From an uncultured Pseudomonadota bacterium (lineage in GTDB: Bacteria > Pseudomonadota > Gammaproteobacteria > Methylococcales > Methylomonadaceae), in NCBI GenBank assembly GCA_903848935.1, contig CAINHO010000026.1, positions 1 through 64,000 of the forward strand: 64,000 nt of DNA, written 5' to 3'. Below, in pieces: positions 7,212 to 63,646 of this stretch. The notes below the pieces were generated by a model that searched no databases, was not told the origin of the DNA, and was given only the letters and a program-made list of their open reading frames with translations. The first letter of the stretch is position 1. Each line of letters begins with the position of its first letter. The position numbers and the translations under genes are program-made.

Positions 7212-8060
7212 CTATAACGCGAAAACAAGCGGGCAAGAATCTGCCATAGGTTTAATCGATGTCACTTGTTTAGTAGGCGTGGCAGTTCTTATTTTTAGAC
7301 GAGTAATCGCTGAAACGAGAGCCATAGACCTTTGACCAAAGTCTGATTTATGTTTCATCAACTGAAGCGCGTCGTCGTACTTCCGAGCGTTAATATATTC
7401 CGCCACCTTGCCCGCTTCTAGGTGAAATAGCGTGTGTGCGTGAATACATTCGTAATGATTTTGTTCGTGACGAATATACAAATGTGCCAGATCACTGTGT
7501 AGCCACCGTCCCAAAATGCAGTGATTGTTTTTAGAAATGTTCGCTACATTGAGGCGTTCTTTATTGGAAATAGCGATGCGTAATTGTGTTTTCCAGTGCG
7601 AGTGACTCGCTACTAAATAAAGATGCCCATCAATGAGCGGATCAAACGTGCCAGGAAAAATTGTTGAAAGGAGTGCGGCGGATGAACGACTAAAATTTGA
7701 TGAATGATTTAATAGCCGTTGAGCAGTTTCATAGTCATGCACATTGATGAGTTTCGCTACCTTACCTGCTTCTATATGAAACTCAGCATGTTTTTTCACA
7801 TAAACGTGGTAACGCGGTAGATGACCGGCATACGGTCGAACGAAGTCGCTGTGCAACCACTTTCCCAATTCACACTCGTCGTCTTTAGAAATAGAAGCGG
7901 CATCAAGCTCTTCCTCATTGGCAATCGCCGCACGAAATCTCGCCATCCAACTATGATGGCTTTTGACTAAACAAAGATGCGAGCTATTCATTGAATCCGC
8001 AATCGATGTAAATTGTTCAGTAAAAATCGCTGAAATCAGCATATTGTCTCTATTTTTCAT
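7212..8060 (-). CDS. Stand-alone protein with two tandem CZB (chemoreceptor zinc-binding) domains
   Basis: Two copies of the H-x-x-W ... C-x-x-G-x-W-L ... H-x-x-F-H pattern (HHSW/CELGKWL/HAEFH and HSHW/CILGRWL/HTLFH). Confidence 0.75.
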   Translation of the reverse strand: MKNRDNMLISAIFTEQFTSIADSMNSSHLCLVKSHHSWMARFRAAIANEEELDAASISKDDECELGKWLHSDFVRPYAGHLPRYHVYVKKHAEFHIEAGKVAKLINVHDYETAQRLLNHSSNFSRSSAALLSTIFPGTFDPLIDGHLYLVASHSHWKTQLRIAISNKERLNVANISKNNHCILGRWLHSDLAHLYIRHEQNHYECIHAHTLFHLEAGKVAEYINARKYDDALQLMKHKSDFGQRSMALVSAITRLKIRTATPTKQVTSIKPMADSCPLVFAL

Positions 8061-8151: not shown

Positions 8152-8661
8152 TTACGCACTGATGGGAAATCGAAAGCTCAATTGTGATGTAACTAAGCCG
8201 ATTCTTCGTGCAGATTTGAGAGTGACGGTGGTTTTAGGTGGTTCACTGATTTCTTTTTTTAGACATATAAATGCGGTCGCAGCGGCATTGTAGGCGTGAT
8301 CGAATCGTGATGTGCAGTCAAATAACTGCCTAGCGTCTTCATACCTTCGTGAGTTGATGAGTTCAGCAATTTTTCCAGCTTCAATGTGAAAGGCGGCGTG
8401 TTTTTTTACACAATCGTGATAACTCGAATGAGGCGTGTAGCGTAAATGGGCGTGTTCAATATGCAACCATTCACCTAAACCACAACAATTGTCTTTGGAA
8501 ATGGTGGCGGTATCGAGTATTTGGTTATTTGTCATAGCGAAACGTAATTGTGTTGTCCAGTAGACGTGCGTCATGACTAGACAATGATGACTGTCGTTTA
8601 CGGATTCTTCAAATGGACGGGTAGAAATAGCCGAAATCGGCATATTTTGTTGATTATTCAT
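8152..8661 (-). CDS. Stand-alone single CZB-domain protein
   Basis: HVYW ... CGLGEWL ... HAAFHIEAG; paralogous to 7212-8060. Confidence 0.72.
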   Translation of the reverse strand: MNNQQNMPISAISTRPFEESVNDSHHCLVMTHVYWTTQLRFAMTNNQILDTATISKDNCCGLGEWLHIEHAHLRYTPHSSYHDCVKKHAAFHIEAGKIAELINSRRYEDARQLFDCTSRFDHAYNAAATAFICLKKEISEPPKTTVTLKSARRIGLVTSQLSFRFPISA

Positions 8662-25950: not shown

Positions 25951-26760
25951 TTAGATAGCGTCAATTACGTCTCGTGTTATGCCAAGAAACCTAATACCAA
26001 CCAGTTCATTAAGTGTTTCAACACTATTCGGTTCATCAGATTCAATCGTGCGTTTCATCATAATTTCAAAAGACACGTTAATCTCACTGCCATTCGGCAT
26101 GATAATTTTGCAATTTTCGTAAATGGTATTCGGTGTCAAAAAATAAGAAAATTCCTCATCATGATTCAACAGTGAGCAACCGGCTAAACTGACATCGTAT
26201 AACTCTAAACATATCAAGTTGATTGCATTTTTTTTGCGTGAAAAGTTGTACTTTATTCTGTTGATAGCAGCGGCATAGTGTTGTCTGTACTCATCGGTTG
26301 CATCACTTTTAGGTATGGGTAATACAATTTCACAAAAACTAGACTTCGCAACGGGGATTTTTTTACGACTATATTTGCGCCGATTGTGCCAATTTAACGA
26401 ACTTGGGATATACATCTGGAAAGCATGATTACCCTTGTACGTTATTTTTTTAATGGATCCGCCATTGAAAGCGGCTTGCACGTCACGAAATACCGTACTG
26501 AATTCAACGCGCGGAACCATCAGCATTTTCTTATTTAACTGTTCCAACGTGCTGCCATTTAGAACGGGCGGCACATCTCGAACTTGTCTCAGAATGAGCG
26601 TGCTGTTTTCGAGATTGATGTCAACAATCATCACAAACAGGCTTTCGCCTTTTCCTAGGTCGGCACTGAATACGCATTTATGCTCGAAAAGTATGGATAA
26701 CTTTTCAATTACCATTTCTCGCTTATCAAATACTAAAGGATCGTCGTTATTCATACGCAA
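25951..26760 (-). CDS. YcgR-like PilZ-domain protein (putative c-di-GMP effector)
   Basis: RKYSR (RxxxR) and DVSLAG (D/NxSxxG) PilZ motifs after a YcgR-N-like region. Confidence 0.68.
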   Translation of the reverse strand: MRMNNDDPLVFDKREMVIEKLSILFEHKCVFSADLGKGESLFVMIVDINLENSTLILRQVRDVPPVLNGSTLEQLNKKMLMVPRVEFSTVFRDVQAAFNGGSIKKITYKGNHAFQMYIPSSLNWHNRRKYSRKKIPVAKSSFCEIVLPIPKSDATDEYRQHYAAAINRIKYNFSRKKNAINLICLELYDVSLAGCSLLNHDEEFSYFLTPNTIYENCKIIMPNGSEINVSFEIMMKRTIESDEPNSVETLNELVGIRFLGITRDVIDAI

Positions 26761-40842: not shown

Positions 40843-43431
40843 TTACAACTCTTCCCAATCGTCAGAAAAGGTTTTTGCTGCCGTATCTTTTTTTAATTTC
40901 ATAATTGCTTCGACCACTGCGCTTGATAACTGGATAAAATCCCCATCGTTATCATTGATCATTTTGTTAGCTTCCTCGTACTTGCGTGCGTTAATTATGT
41001 GAGCAATTGCGCCTGTAGCTTTATGAAATTCAGTATGACGAGCAACACACGTTTTATAACTATCAAAATGCGCCACTTTCGGCTGTGTATCTTCATGATA
41101 TAGCCACTTCCCAAAATCACAGCAGTCATCCCTTGAAATAGTTGTCGCATCGAGTGTTTCTTCATTTTTAATTGCAGAGCGAAGTTTCACTTTCCAAGCA
41201 GCATGTTTTTTCAACGCACCATCTAAGTCAATATTGATAGATTCTGTTGTTTGTGGCACAGGTGTTACCGCTGTTTGTACAGCAGGTTTTGTTTTCACCG
41301 CAGGTGTAACACTTTTTGATTGTTGATACGCATCCATTTTGAAATTTTTCATCACAACCAATAAATGTCGCGCTTGATCTTCAAGCGATTCAGCAGCCGC
41401 AGCGGCTTGTTCAACTAACGCAGCGTTTTGTTGTATCACATCATCCATTTCACCAATTGCGTGATTCACCTGTTGAATGCCAGCGTTTTGTTCGTAAGAG
41501 GCTGAAGTAATTTGTGTAATCGTTGTCGTTACGTCTTGAGTCGAGTTCACAATTTCTTCCATTGTTTTACCCGCACGCGCGACTAAATTTGTACCATCTT
41601 CGACTTTATCAACTGAATCACTAATCAAACTTTTAATTTCACCTGCCGCGCTTGCCGCACGTTGCGCTAAATTTCTCACTTCACTTGCCACGACCGCAAA
41701 ACCACGACCTTGTTCACCCGCTCTCGCCGCTTCAACTGCAGCGTTTAACGCCAAAATATTCGTTTGGAATGCAATCCCATCAATAACAGCAATAATATCG
41801 ACGATTTTTCGTGACGATTCGTTAATATCTTTCATTGTTGAAACAACTTGATTCACAACATCAACACCTTTGCGTGCAATATCTGACGATGACAACGCTA
41901 TTTCATTCGCATATTTTGCATTTTCGCTGTTGGTTTGAACGGTTGAAGTAAGTTCTTGCATACTCGCAGCTGTTTCTTCCAAACTTGCCGCTTGTCGCTC
42001 GGTGCGAGCGGATAAATCATTATTTCCTTCCGCAATTTCTTGAGATGCAGTGCTAATTGTGTCGGCGGAATCTTTTATGTCTTGCAACAAGGTTTTTAAA
42101 TTTTCAACTATGCCATTCATCGCATCTTTAGCCACGCCAAATGTACCAGGATAATCTTTGATGATTTCTTGCGTTAAATCACCTTGCGCTAAGGCACTTG
42201 CAATGCGTAACACGTCGTTAAAGCCAACTTCACTGGTTTCAACTAATTTATTTAAATGCGTCAACATATCCTTGAACATGAATTCAAAAGCATCGGTATT
42301 CGCACGTTTTGAAAAATCACCTTGCGAACTCGCGGTAACAATTATTTCAATTTCGTTGTTAATTTTTAATAACGCTGTTTTTACTGCATCAATCGCTGTG
42401 GTAATTTTGCCTTTTTCTTGTGGTAAACGGCTTATATCGCGCGAAAAGTCACCTTTTGCATATTGCGTGACGACATCAACAATTTCCATTTTGACGGTAA
42501 TATGCGACTGTACCAAGTGGTTAATATCATTCGCCATTTTCGCATAAGTGCCTTTGAATTTATTAGCCGCCATTTTGTGATTGATAAAACCTTGATCGTG
42601 TTTTTCGGAAATTAAACTTTGCTCAGTAACAAAACCGTTAATCGTTTCTTGTAGATTTTTTAATGAATAAAGCAAACTGCTGTTATCGCGCGATTGCAAT
42701 GTAATCACGCTTGAAAAATTCCCGTCAGAAATTTGGCTAACGTGTTTTACCGCGTCGTTAATTTCACCCCCTAATTGACGCACAATTGAACGTGAAAAAC
42801 TAAAACCAATCCAAGTGCTTGCGACAAAACCTAGCGAAACTAAAAAAATCATCAAAATTACATTGTTGTTATAATTTTCGTCTGATTCCATCATAGTTTT
42901 TTTCGCAAACTCTTCTTTTAAAACGTTTAATCTTTCTAGTTTACCATCAATTTCTTTACCTTTCGGCTCTTGTAATTTTCGTAAAGCGATAAATTCAGGC
43001 GTTTGTGAAGTTAAATTTTGGTCAAAAATCATCGCCGCCATTTGCAGCGTTAGATGTTTCCATTCATCGTTCACCTGTTCAATTTCATGAACGAGTTTTT
43101 TTCCTTCTTCTGTGTAAAATAATTCACCGCCTTTTTTAATATTGTCTTCATAAGTCTGAATGCTATCTGTAAGCTGTTTAGCATATTTTTGTTTCTCCTC
43201 AACCGTTGGTGCAATCAATACATCGCGCCAACGGCGACCCGCATCAAGGCGATTAGCTTGTGCTTGTTTGACATAAGAAATTCCGAGCAAATCTTTGCTG
43301 TAGAGTTGATCGATGTAATTATCAATGCTACTCATGCTCATAATGCCGACGACTGAAATACTTAAGCCAATTAGTGACACGGCAATGAAGCTACCGACTA
43401 ATTTTGTGCCGAGTTTCATATTTTCGAACAT
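40843..43431 (-). CDS. Methyl-accepting chemotaxis protein with C-terminal CZB domain
   Basis: Signalling hairpin [48 protein letters not shown]-terminal HAAW ... CCDFGKWL ... HTEFH. Confidence 0.93.
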
Positions 43432-57673: not shown

Positions 57674-60600
57674 ATGAACTATAAAAAGAAATTCTTATTT
57701 TTGATCATTCGTTTATTGATGATTGGGTTCACGTCCAATTATGTGATGGCAACTCCGTTTACGTTTACGCCAGTGGATGTCACGGGAAAATTATTGGAAT
57801 TTAAAAATCCAGTACGAATAGCGGGGGTGGGTATAAACGATGGGAATGGTTCTGCGTCAGTTGGCGCGAAATATAAATACACCAATGTCACCACTGTAAA
57901 CGGTGTTCAAGTGGACGCGATTGTGGAGATTACAGGTAAAACATCTAACGCCACGGTCACAACTTTTGATCAACCCAATCCAAATGGTGCGGCGTACACA
58001 ACCACGTTTGGTCTTACTGTCCCCGAAGCCACATTATTTGCACCAGAAATTACCGTTATTGGGACGGGATATGTTGATTTCACGATTTCTTTTCAAGGGA
58101 TTGCAGGGAATCCGTTAACACTCGAAAACTTTTACAACAATTCTATCGACATTGATGGCCCTGAATTTGTGGAATACGGCGGATTTCAATCGTATCAAAT
58201 GTGTTCGTCACATTGCACAACAACAAATAATCCAACGGGTGCATACGTCAACACTACGGATTTAATCGCCACAACGGGGGCAGGTGGTAATGGTACTCAA
58301 AAACGGTTTACGCAAAAAACAAATAACAATACTTACAACGGGCTAGTTCTTAATGATGCTGGGCGTGTTCAAACAGTTTTTGACTCGGTTACTAATTTGA
58401 AAATCACTATGGGACAAACCAACGGTTCAGGCGTGCGTCTTTATGGCTCTGTTTTCGTCAATCAACAATATGTGGTGAATCCGCCCGCTATCGTTTTAGC
58501 TCCCACGGTGAATCCTTTAACCACAACCAATACAAAACCAAGTATTACTGGATCGGTCGGCGGACCTGTCACCACAGCAAATACGTCAATCGGCAGTCCG
58601 GTCACTGGTACACAAACATTTTCAGTTGCGGTAAATAACGTAACGTACAACAAACCTAATTCAAATTTAACGTTTAGTGCGGACGGTTTGACGTGGATGT
58701 TGAAAATTCCGACAGCTTTGACCGCTGGCGTAACATACGAAGTCACCGCGATACGAGATGGTTTGAGCGATCAAACAAGCAACGAATTAGTCATTGTGCC
58801 GATTTGTATCGCGCCAGCCATTCTGAATGCTGACGGAACTATCTGCGTCACGCCAACCGTTAATACAGTTACGCTTTGTCACAGTGATGACGGGCAAAGT
58901 TATACCAAAATCCTAATCAATAACACTGGTGCGAATGGTCACGAATCGCACCCTTATGATGTTTTAGCAGATGCAAATGGCGCGTGTCCAACGCCAGTTC
59001 CAGTGACTTGTATATTACCTGCTGTGCGTGATTCCTCCACAAATACTTGTGTTACGCCAGCTCCCAACACTTGTCCAACGTTAGAAAATCTCAGCGCAAC
59101 AATTCCAAGTTATGCGCTTTCTGACAATGGCAACAAAGTTACGATTTGCCACAATACGTCTAGCGCAACCAATCCATTTAATCTTATTACCATCAGCATC
59201 AACGCACTTTCGCCACATTTGAATAATCACGGCGATTTTTTCACGAAATCTGGCGTATGTCCGACGGATGCTGTGCCATGTCCACCCGTAATTTGTACCT
59301 TTCCACAAATTATCAACGCCGTTGGTGATGGCTGCGTATTGCTCAATCCGCCCACCGTTGACAGTCAAACTACCACGAATACTATGCCAACGATTACTGG
59401 CACAGTGGGCAGCGTTGGATTAAGTGCGGGCGAACCGTTTTCAGTTGCCGTGAATAACGTAACGTACAACAAAGGCAATGCGAATTTAGCGATTACCAGC
59501 ACAAACTGGATGCTGAACATCTCAACACCGTTAGCTGTCGGTACTTATAACGTTGATGCGTTACGCAACAACACGTTACCCGACAACACCAGTGGCGAAT
59601 TGGTCATTAAATTAAGTTGCACCGCACCACAACAACTTAATTTTGCGGGTGATTATTGTATTTCTGCGCCTACCGTTTTTTCTCAAAGTGTCGCCGATAC
59701 CACGCCAACCATTATGGGAACAATTGGCAGCGGTTCACTCGGTGCACCTGCGTTAGGCGCAAATGAAGCATTTAAAATGGTGGTGAATAGCGTTATTTAC
59801 AACAAAGGCGACGCGGCATTAAGTATTAACGGCGCAACATGGACATTAACTATTCCCGACGGCAACGCCTTGATTGCCAGCACTTCATATCCTGTCACAG
59901 CAACTCGTGACGGAACATTGAGCGGCAGCGGAACGGTAACAATTACGGGCTTGCCAACAGTCGAATCACAATCCACCACCAATAAAACGCCCGTGATTAA
60001 AGGCACAGTCGGCGATACACCATTGAATACAACCGACACGTTTACTGTGACAGTAAATGCTAAAACTTACAGCAAAACGGACAGCAGTTTGGTCATTAAC
60101 GGTTTGAACTGGACATTAACGATTCCCGCTGCCAATAAAATTCCCGCTGGAACATACAACGTGGAAGCAGTACATAACGGCACATTAAAAGATAATACGA
60201 CGGGAGAATTGATTATTAACGCCCTTAGTCCGCCGAGTGTTAATGCCAAAGAAACGTTCGATACCACCCCGACGATTACAGGCAAAATTGGTGATGTAGC
60301 GTTGGCAACTGGCGAAGTATTTACGGTAAATCTGAACAATCAAATATACACCGCTGGCGATAGTCATTTAATTGTAACGACATTGGATTGGACATTGACG
60401 ATTCCAAAAGGCAAAGAAATTGCGGCGGGAACGTATAACGTTGAAGCGGCACGCGACGATTTGAAAGACACCACGACAAACGAATTAAAAATTAAACCAT
60501 GTCCATTGCCGAGCGTCGTGAATGAAACCGCTGACACTTGCTCCATTCCTGTACCGACGGTTGTCGCACAAACTATCACAAGCAGCGTGCCAGTTTCGCC

Positions 60601-62464
60601 AGTGATTACCGGAACGGTTGGCGATGTTGTGCTTGGCACGCCAGAAACTTTTTCTGTGACAGTGGAAACAACACCGCCGCAAATTTACAACAAAGGCGAT
60701 AATGCGTTAGTGATTAACGCGCTGAATTGGACGTTGACGATTCCAGCGGCAAAAGCCATTTCAGCGGGAACGTATGAAGTCGAAGCGGCTCGCAACACAA
60801 CGGCAAAAGATATTACACACAATGAACTCGTCATTAACTTGGTTTGCGAAATAGGTCAAACGAACATAAACAATACTTGCGTTTCAAACACATTATTGCC
60901 AACTGTGAATTTTCTTTCTACAGACGACACCACTCCGACTTTAACGGGAACGGTTGGTAATGCAGTATTAAGTGCAACAGAAGATTTTACGGTCGAAGTG
61001 AATGGCGTGATTTATGACAAATCACAAATCATTTTTAGTGGCGCGATATGGAAAATCACGATTCCATTAGCAAATGCGTTATCGGTTGGAAATTATGATG
61101 TAGTTGCCGCACGCAATACGACTTTAAAAGATACTACCCGTGGCGAATTGACGATTATTGAATGTATTGAAACGAAAAAAATAAACGCCGACGGTGATTG
61201 TGTTGCTCAAAGTGTCGTGCCGACGGTCAATGCGTTGAATGCGCCAATAACCGCTTCTTCAATAACCGTCACAGGCACCGTTGGCGATTCGGTATTGGCG
61301 AATAATGACGTATTTACCGTAAAAGTAAGCAACGCAGCACACAGTAAAATCGCTGGTAATTTAACGGTCACTGGCGTGAATTGGGCATTTGCATTGACGG
61401 AGCGTTATGAAGGAACGTATGACGTTGATGCGGTAAGAAACGGGCAAGCGGATTTGACCAGTGGTGAATTAGTGATTACCGACAATATCGACATTTGCAA
61501 CGCTGGTAAAAGTCAATCCATTAAGCACAGCGAATGGGACGGTAGCAAAGAAAGTAAAACATATTATTTAGGCAAATGTGCGTTACCAGAATGCAGTGCC
61601 GAAATTACCACCGAATGCACGCCCGCATTGCCTAAAAGTCCTAAAGAACTTGCTCAAGCGTTACCAAATGAACCACTTTCCGTAACGAATCAATACGTTC
61701 CTGTTTACGAGTTGGTTTATTGTGATGATGGCGGTGTAAAAAGCAGCAGTCCAGCAACTAATGTCACCATTAAACGGGCGCGAATTGTGAATGCGTCAAC
61801 AGAAAATGGCACGATTGATTTAACGGGTATGCCAACAAAAGTGAAGTATGGCATTAAAGCACCTGGAATGGGTACGATGGATATTAACAATGCTACGATT
61901 AACGAAGGTAAAGCAACGGGTGCAACGCTCACAGGCGTAACGCTTAACAATGTTTATATTGATACGGTCAACGATTATATCGATGCAAACGGAAATCTTG
62001 TCGCAGGTAATACGACTTTCATCAAAGTGATGGGTGGCAAAACAAAACCGACGACCCTTAAAGAAGATGGCACGATTACAGACGGTACAATTATCAGTGG
62101 AATGATTACAGCAGGACAAGATTCAGCTGGTAATCCCGTGCGCGGTAGTATTACCACCGGACTTTATAATGCCGATATTAACAATGCCGATTCCGTTCTC
62201 ACCGAAGGTAGAAGAACCCAAGGAACGATTGTAAATGCTACTATTGAAGACGCGCAAACGACTACGGTAAATGGCGTAACCGTGGTTGATGCTGGCACAA
62301 TTACCAGCGGTCAAATGGATCTTGTGGCTGCTACAGCTTCCACGTTCGGTACGGTAATTAACGCCACGCTTTCTGGTACAGAAATCTCGAACACGAATCA
62401 CTGTTTTTCAAGCGGCACCGTTGGCACACATGGGCAATTGAACTGGAAAGAAGTCGTTAAATAA
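57674..62464 (+). CDS. Large secreted multi-repeat protein (putative adhesin/surface protein)
   Basis: Signal peptide; eight divergent Ig-like repeats; two CHS/CHN-type motifs; C-terminal T/G/N-rich beta-helix-like segment. Confidence 0.8.
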   Translation: MNYKKKFLFLIIRLLMIGFTSNYVMATPFTFTPVDVTGKLLEFKNPVRIAGVGINDGNGSASVGAKYKYTNVTTVNGVQVDAIVEITGKTSNATVTTFDQPNPNGAAYTTTFGLTVPEATLFAPEITVIGTGYVDFTISFQGIAGNPLTLENFYNNSIDIDGPEFVEYGGFQSYQMCSSHCTTTNNPTGAYVNTTDLIATTGAGGNGTQKRFTQKTNNNTYNGLVLNDAGRVQTVFDSVTNLKITMGQTNGSGVRLYGSVFVNQQYVVNPPAIVLAPTVNPLTTTNTKPSITGSVGGPVTTANTSIGSPVTGTQTFSVAVNNVTYNKPNSNLTFSADGLTWMLKIPTALTAGVTYEVTAIRDGLSDQTSNELVIVPICIAPAILNADGTICVTPTVNTVTLCHSDDGQSYTKILINNTGANGHESHPYDVLADANGACPTPVPVTCILPAVRDSSTNTCVTPAPNTCPTLENLSATIPSYALSDNGNKVTICHNTSSATNPFNLITISINALSPHLNNHGDFFTKSGVCPTDAVPCPPVICTFPQIINAVGDGCVLLNPPTVDSQTTTNTMPTITGTVGSVGLSAGEPFSVAVNNVTYNKGNANLAITSTNWMLNISTPLAVGTYNVDALRNNTLPDNTSGELVIKLSCTAPQQLNFAGDYCISAPTVFSQSVADTTPTIMGTIGSGSLGAPALGANEAFKMVVNSVIYNKGDAALSINGATWTLTIPDGNALIASTSYPVTATRDGTLSGSGTVTITGLPTVESQSTTNKTPVIKGTVGDTPLNTTDTFTVTVNAKTYSKTDSSLVINGLNWTLTIPAANKIPAGTYNVEAVHNGTLKDNTTGELIINALSPPSVNAKETFDTTPTITGKIGDVALATGEVFTVNLNNQIYTAGDSHLIVTTLDWTLTIPKGKEIAAGTYNVEAARDDLKDTTTNELKIKPCPLPSVVNETADTCSIPVPTVVAQTITSSVPVSPVITGTVGDVVLGTPETFSVTVETTPPQIYNKGDNALVINALNWTLTIPAAKAISAGTYEVEAARNTTAKDITHNELVINLVCEIGQTNINNTCVSNTLLPTVNFLSTDDTTPTLTGTVGNAVLSATEDFTVEVNGVIYDKSQIIFSGAIWKITIPLANALSVGNYDVVAARNTTLKDTTRGELTIIECIETKKINADGDCVAQSVVPTVNALNAPITASSITVTGTVGDSVLANNDVFTVKVSNAAHSKIAGNLTVTGVNWAFALTERYEGTYDVDAVRNGQADLTSGELVITDNIDICNAGKSQSIKHSEWDGSKESKTYYLGKCALPECSAEITTECTPALPKSPKELAQALPNEPLSVTNQYVPVYELVYCDDGGVKSSSPATNVTIKRARIVNASTENGTIDLTGMPTKVKYGIKAPGMGTMDINNATINEGKATGATLTGVTLNNVYIDTVNDYIDANGNLVAGNTTFIKVMGGKTKPTTLKEDGTITDGTIISGMITAGQDSAGNPVRGSITTGLYNADINNADSVLTEGRRTQGTIVNATIEDAQTTTVNGVTVVDAGTITSGQMDLVAATASTFGTVINATLSGTEISNTNHCFSSGTVGTHGQLNWKEVVK
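58500..61480 (+). repeat. Eight divergent tandem Ig-like repeats (PTV..T...P.ITGTVG....F.V.VN...Y.K....L.W.L.IP....AGTYNV.A.R.....D.T..EL.I)
   Basis: Repeat starts near 58502, 59351, 59669, 59953, 60232, 60555, 60898 and 61219. Confidence 0.85.
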
Positions 62465-62515: not shown

Positions 62516-63646
62516 TCAAACTTCTTCGCTAAGTAACGCTATTCGTTGCCGTTCAATTTCTCGAACGTAATAGGAAATCGTCGATTCAACGGCTTGCGTC
62601 ATGTTAGTAAATTCAACCCCAATAATTTCGTTAAAGCCGACGATGTGGTGACTTTCAACGCGATGCTGCAACATGATTTTAAAAGAAACCTTAATTTCAT
62701 CACCATCTGGCATGTGAATCGTGCAGTTTTTATAAACTGTGCTTGGTGATAAAAAATATGAAAACTCGTGGTCATGATTCAATATCGAACAACCCGACGA
62801 ACTAATGTCGCGTAAATTTAATTGCATGACATTAGCTGAGACAAAATCTGGAATGATGGCACTAATAGAATGCCGTTGCGATTTCAATTTTTCGTATATT
62901 TTATTGGTTGCTAGCGCGTAAGCCTGTTTATAAGCTGCTGGTGAGTTTTTTTTGGGTGCAGCAAGTTCAATTTTGCAATAACACAATGTTCTGACAGAGG
63001 TTATTGTATTGATACGGAAAGATTCGCGACGATTATTCGGTTGTATCATCGGCGCGTCTGGAAGGTCGCTCGAAATAGAATTTAGCGGCTTTAACACTGC
63101 AATGATCGATTCACAATCTAGCTCATCTGCCAATTCCATCGCAATTTGCGTGTAAATCACATTGTTTTGTTCATCTATGACTACAACCGCTTGCACCATC
63201 AAACCCGCTAACGCGCCATCGATAATTTGCACGCCATAATCAACCGCAAATGTACTGCGAAAAGTGGATAACGTTTCCATCGCATGCAAGCCTTGAGCAG
63301 CACAAAATTGGCGTTGAGAAAATGGTAAATCTGCTGAAATCGTTAACAAGATGGTATTTTCTAAATCGACTTTTTCGTGATTCAATTTTCGCGTCCATGC
63401 TACACAACTCGGTACGTCCAAACTGGGCAGAATGTTTAAAATTTTACGTTTGCCTGTGTATGTTGCCAGCGTCACATTTTTCAATTCGTTGTTAGTCAAA
63501 CAAAAATCGGGAGCTTGACCACCAACAGCGGGCAATGAACCATTTGTTTGCATCGTTAAGTGTAATTTTTCATTCCAATAATCGACACTGGAAATCGGGG
63601 TAGAACTGAGAAGGTCATCCACAACATAACTCCTTAATAAAAACAT
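62516..63646 (-). CDS. Tpx-type peroxiredoxin fused to a C-terminal PilZ-like domain
   Basis: GQAPDFCLTNNELKNVTLATYTGKRKILNILPSLDVPSCVAWTRKLN, ISADLPFSQRQFC, LSTFRS (Tpx); RESFR and DISSSG (PilZ); PilZ part closely resembles 25951-26760. Confidence 0.82.
   Translation of the reverse strand: MFLLRSYVVDDLLSSTPISSVDYWNEKLHLTMQTNGSLPAVGGQAPDFCLTNNELKNVTLATYTGKRKILNILPSLDVPSCVAWTRKLNHEKVDLENTILLTISADLPFSQRQFCAAQGLHAMETLSTFRSTFAVDYGVQIIDGALAGLMVQAVVVIDEQNNVIYTQIAMELADELDCESIIAVLKPLNSISSDLPDAPMIQPNNRRESFRINTITSVRTLCYCKIELAAPKKNSPAAYKQAYALATNKIYEKLKSQRHSISAIIPDFVSANVMQLNLRDISSSGCSILNHDHEFSYFLSPSTVYKNCTIHMPDGDEIKVSFKIMLQHRVESHHIVGFNEIIGVEFTNMTQAVESTISYYVREIERQRIALLSEEV

Follow-up and report, generated by a model that had tools for sequence, protein, structure and literature searches.

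A gene in the window (the whole 64,000-nucleotide stretch of DNA that was analysed), which comes from a genus of methane-oxidising bacteria, encodes a thiol peroxidase (Tpx)-like domain followed by a PilZ domain. Two residues that the enzyme needs have been lost from the Tpx domain, so the product is probably a signalling protein and not a peroxidase. On the balance of the sequence evidence, we favour the reading that this protein is a c-di-GMP effector in which the Tpx fold serves as a structural or signal-relay module without peroxidase chemistry (Tpx*-PilZ).

One reading frame joins Tpx and PilZ

An earlier interpretation made from the letters alone (the sequence-only reading) had placed Tpx and PilZ in a single polypeptide. 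Profile matches and an uninterrupted shared frame bear this out: the open reading frame at 62516-63646 on the minus strand comprises 376 codons, with no stop between the two domains. Because Tpx and PilZ also lie in one frame in four other genomes, an assembly error is ruled out; an assembly chimera was dismissed on the same recurrence, five genomes in total. The open frame stands as first read, but its likely start differs. A GTG at 63622, with an AAGGAG ribosome-binding site 7 nt upstream and coinciding with the N-termini of the orthologues, is the most likely start, giving a predicted product of 368 aa (Table 1). Residue numbers of the window protein follow the 376-aa, ATG-started frame. 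Near the gene, we found no promoter signal above chance.

Table 1 Features of the gene and its predicted product in the window
Feature	Position	Strand	Remarks
Tpx*-PilZ gene	62516..63622	-	368 aa from likely GTG start (AAGGAG and orthologue N-termini); ATG-started ORF 62516-63646 = 376 aa
Residues 16-31 (..SSVDYWNEKLHLTM)	63554..63601	-	Resemble the start of CZB helix 1 (HSHWKTQLRIAI)
Tpx-like domain, residues 32-186	63089..63553	-	Pro74, Val78 (Thr lost), Cys81 (CP), Cys115 (CR), Gln152 (Arg lost)
Linker, residues 187-203	63038..63088	-	Low confidence in AF2 model, disordered
PilZ domain, residues 204-372	62531..63037	-	Helical insert (about residues 237-258) separating both motifs
RESFR, RxxxR c-di-GMP motif, residues 207-211	63014..63028	-	Kept in 8/8 fusions
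DISSSG, DxSxxG c-di-GMP motif, residues 280-285	62792..62809	-	Kept in 8/8 fusions

The fused Tpx domain lacks two catalytic residues

Tpx is an atypical 2-Cys peroxiredoxin, and the N-terminal part of the window protein belongs to the Tpx family, as had been proposed. NCBIfam NF001808 matched residues 32-186 with 169.6 bits (cut-off 123), Pfam Redoxin matched with E=1.4e-21, and the best match in the PDB was E. coli Tpx (1qxh, E=1.7e-41). We built an AF2 model from a 57-row alignment (mean pLDDT 84.9; both domains mostly 85-98), in which Foldseek aligned the Tpx domain to E. coli Tpx 3hvv with a TM of 0.90 of the target. The pTM of this model was low (0.55), so that the placement of the two domains relative to each other is not fixed by it.

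Peroxiredoxins have been described as strictly keeping the motif P-x3-[T/S]-x2-C plus one Arg (PMC5719442), and the Thr and Arg contribute to activating the peroxidatic Cys (CP) (PMC5022050). No paper giving rate constants for peroxiredoxin Thr or Arg mutants was found in the literature searched. In the window protein, the motif reads PSLDVPSC instead of PxxxTxxC, with the invariant Thr replaced by Val78, and the position of the invariant Arg is occupied by Gln152. Both substitutions had been overlooked when the protein was first read as a peroxidase. They extend to the whole family of fusions described below: the catalytic Thr is absent from all eight (Val in six, Ala or Ile in the others), as is the catalytic Arg (Gln, Glu or Pro instead), whereas Pro, Thr, CP, the resolving Cys (CR) and Arg are all intact in each of the 43 distinct standalone Tpx sequences compared, which argues against peroxide reduction by the window protein. 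Among the 41 columns that are invariant in these standalone sequences, three (Thr78, Ala92 and Arg152) were kept by none of the fusions. The Cys residues identified by the sequence-only reading are indeed present, as Cys81 (CP) and Cys115 (CR). CP is kept in seven of the eight fusions and absent from one. CR is kept in three fusions, which make up the clade of the window protein and have both Cys (3/3), and is missing from the other five.

The ratio dN/dS of the fused Tpx domain was 0.11-0.19 in the window clade and 0.15-0.29 in the clade of longer fusions, and that of standalone Tpx was 0.05-0.13; over both domains of the fusions it was 0.11-0.34, with dS close to saturation in several of the pairs and a window clade (n=3) that is too small for site-by-site selection tests. 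Loss of the Thr and Arg together with constraint on the remainder is what a pseudo-enzyme retained by selection would show. Judging from these ratios, the fused Tpx domain is under purifying selection as such a pseudo-enzyme and is not in decay.

A divergent PilZ domain keeps both c-di-GMP motifs

The PilZ domain of the window protein is, by its sequence, a divergent one with a long insert between its motifs. A profile search for both domains placed Tpx above its cut-off, but Pfam PilZ (cut-off 22.5) scored 20.5 bits on the whole protein and 22.9 bits on the C-terminal fragment scanned alone. The nearest PDB profile matches of this half were to YcgR (E 0.015-0.1), and no fold match for it was among the Foldseek matches listed, which are filled by Tpx. 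The c-di-GMP motifs RESFR and DISSSG are exactly as first read, starting at residues 207 and 280. PilZ identity among the fusions is 47-72% in the pairs compared; both motifs are nonetheless found in all eight. PilZN (YcgR_N) was absent from the fusions and present in the non-fused PilZ proteins scanned from the genus. The PilZ half has three Cys residues (C222, C224 and C308, including a CYC motif) that do not vary among the eight fusions, and it is possible that they form a second redox or metal site.

Related fusions in the genus carry CZB domains

We compared 18 genomes of the genus, the window's own genome (G000) among them, and found eight PilZ-bearing Tpx fusions in five (G000, G001, G006, G007 and G010). 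Seven of these are additional to the window protein: two in its own genome and five in the four others, with G001 contributing two. The two in G000 are a tandem pair on contig C24 (516 and 539 aa, 8 bp apart), and the same genome holds an intact standalone Tpx (contig C45) and further PilZ proteins. The window protein forms a clade of short fusions with one orthologue each from G001 and G007 (66-71% identity overall). Four other fusions have approximately 140 extra N-terminal residues that constitute a CZB domain (33-41 bits; cut-off 29.4), giving the architecture CZB-Tpx*-PilZ, and the zinc-motif His and Cys are visible in the CZB sequences of these long paralogues. CZB is a zinc/oxidant sensor in chemoreceptors and c-di-GMP enzymes (PMC8262984, PMC13370339). 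The sequence-only reading described the window protein correctly as a fusion but saw it alone, and this wider family lay beyond its view. The window protein gave no domain match to CZB; its residues 16-31 are possibly a remnant of the second CZB of the long form, although the resemblance is weak for this protein. In the G010 fusion, CZB is a separate open reading frame that ends just upstream of the Tpx-PilZ start. A ninth protein, G010b (L047:6210-7493, on contig C26 of G010), is a CZB-Tpx without PilZ that keeps the Arg and both Cys and has Glu in place of the Thr. Its gene lies directly upstream of those for a PAS-like signalling protein and a response-regulator-like protein.

Outside the genus, profile searches of several hundred genomes returned only PilZ-less Tpx matches at the thresholds used. 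The sets, which overlapped, were drawn from the family (151 genomes at E 1e-30), the class (369 at 1e-66 and 124 at 1e-12) and the phylum (399 at 1e-62); divergent fusions falling short of these limits, or lying in genomes not drawn, may escape. One contig search for the fusion yielded one locus, that of the G001 orthologue. The phylogenetic spread of the architecture in the sets searched is thus eight fusions in 5/18 genomes, all in the genus of the window.

The fusion arose within the genus

In a tree of Tpx domains (44 rows), the fused domains formed one group inside the genus (93/76; in 90% of bootstraps), and in a tree of PilZ domains (36 rows) they again formed one group (100/99*). The inner groups of fusions were identical in the two trees. 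The simplest reading is that one fusion event was followed by duplications, and these sequences indicate that its two parts, Tpx and an insert-bearing YcgR-type PilZ, both came from the genus itself. When the long forms were aligned to a tandem-CZB protein encoded in the window (7212-8060), the alignment did not stop at the end of the first CZB but reached helix 1 of the second one, which suggests that the second CZB of a tandem-CZB-type protein may have been the point at which Tpx was attached. The window copy may later have lost the first CZB.

The window contains several genes for related domains. Two neighbouring CZB-only genes lie on the minus strand (7212-8060 and 8152-8661), one with two CZB in tandem, and of the proteins compared, the tandem-CZB one is most closely related to the CZB part of the long fusions. 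A chemoreceptor with CZB at its C-terminus (40843-43431, minus strand) and a 269-aa YcgR-like protein with the PilZ subtype of the fusion (25951-26760, minus strand) are also encoded, and CZB matches in the window genome number ten in all.

Genomic neighbourhood

The window gene is solitary and, like its orthologue in G001, is oriented divergently from an alkaline phosphatase gene; the gene of a 1596-aa repeat protein (57674-62464, plus strand) converges with it. Similar repeats occur in a bacterial Ig-like protein encoded near the G007 orthologue, and a Pfam search of the 1596-aa protein gave no match at 0.001. The G007 orthologue itself lies approximately 90 bp behind a type IV minor pilin cluster (GspH/FimT, PilV-like, PilW and PilX-like). 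The long forms in G000 and G001 (L039:5352-8530 and L045:6265-7824) follow an apparent F-type (N-ATPase-like) ATP synthase operon, assigned by reading without a profile, and in G001 the long form and the last gene of this operon share 4 bp. We counted 22 GGDEF matches in the window genome and found FliG in all 18 genomes, so that c-di-GMP signalling and flagella are available.

Proposed mechanism and alternatives

We propose that the window protein is a YcgR-type PilZ protein whose N-terminal part would have been replaced by a Tpx domain stripped of peroxidase chemistry. The PilZ domain would bind c-di-GMP and carry the output, possibly to the flagellar motor, the type IV pilus or another target. 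Known Tpx is a dimer, and the Tpx fold may serve for dimerisation, docking or signal relay. Zinc/oxidant input to the long paralogues would come from their CZB domain. The window copy, without CZB, would respond mainly to c-di-GMP, plus at most to a Cys81-Cys115 thiol switch; such a slow redox switch is possible in this protein. Counting against the pseudo-enzyme reading, the Cys pair is intact throughout the window clade, which could mean a working disulfide. In a redox-gated c-di-GMP effector, oxidants (HOCl, peroxynitrite, organic peroxides or high H2O2) would still drive Cys81 and Cys115 to form this disulfide, and PilZ binding or output would change through the local unfolding that is known to accompany Tpx oxidation. 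The pair has persisted despite 66-71% overall identity, three invariant Cys lie in the fused PilZ itself, and the paralogues bear the CZB sensor (PMC8262984, PMC13370339). However, the Thr and Arg that activate CP are gone, so that only a slow reaction with H2O2 is expected; five of the eight fusions are missing CR and one is missing CP, and two Cys retained by three related sequences are not, alone, significant. We therefore regard redox gating of the window protein as rather unlikely. Our view of a broader proposal is doubtful but a shade more open: that CZB-Tpx*-PilZ and Tpx*-PilZ may make up a new c-di-GMP effector family whose pseudo-peroxiredoxin passes a zinc/oxidant signal on to PilZ, with redox state gating the reading of c-di-GMP.

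An active peroxidase under c-di-GMP gating, as originally proposed, could appeal to the NF001808 match, which exceeds the NCBIfam equivalog cut-off, and to the presence of both Cys. We consider it very unlikely, because the catalytic Thr and Arg are gone from every fusion, in contrast to 43/43 standalone Tpx, and CR is gone too from the five outside the window clade; moreover, the genome already has an intact standalone Tpx with both residues retained (G000:C45:11918-12394). Weak PilZ scores (20.5 bits on the whole protein; E 0.015-0.1 for the YcgR profiles) and the helical insert separating the two motifs would fit an adaptor that acts by protein-protein contact only, its PilZ motifs kept and its c-di-GMP affinity lost. 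This is improbable given that RxxxR and DxSxxG occur in 8/8 fusions although PilZ identity is so low. Least credible of all is a decaying chimeric gene without function. It would account for the restriction to one genus and 5/18 genomes and for the lost catalytic residues, but there are eight genes with open frames and retained fold-determining residues, and we dismissed decay on dN/dS, which is 0.11-0.34 in both domains. The c-di-GMP effector with a non-catalytic Tpx fold remains our preferred reading.

Comparison with known systems

We found no paper on a Tpx-PilZ protein in the literature searched, many subscription journals being outside its scope, and a survey of 10,140 CZB sequences counted seven architectures, none with PilZ or redoxin (PMC8262984). 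To the extent tested, this makes the architecture new, in agreement with the initial impression that it was undescribed; its parts are already known. A peroxiredoxin that lacks its two activating residues and yet is under selection offers a testable case of enzyme-fold recruitment into signalling, with the intact standalone Tpx of the same genome as a built-in control. The redox input known for c-di-GMP signalling acts mainly on the making and breaking of c-di-GMP, as in the CZB-GGDEF protein DgcZ. The fusion puts oxidant-related domains on a predicted c-di-GMP reader, PilZ, and not on a maker or breaker.

With E. coli Tpx (1qxh/3hvv), the fusion has in common the fold, the domain length and the positions of CP and CR (the two being 48% identical when aligned by structure), but it has Val and Gln for the catalytic Thr and Arg, plus a C-terminal PilZ. 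The YcgR/PilZN-PilZ flagellar brakes of the genus share its PilZ subtype, helical insert and both c-di-GMP motifs, whereas the fusion carries the altered Tpx domain in place of the N-terminal PilZN. Like DgcZ (CZB-GGDEF), TlpD (MCP-CZB), CZB-EAL, CheW-CZB and CZB-only proteins, the long paralogues have CZB and a c-di-GMP link; unlike them, they have as output domain PilZ, which reads c-di-GMP, and a Tpx fold lies between it and CZB. The window copy is without CZB.
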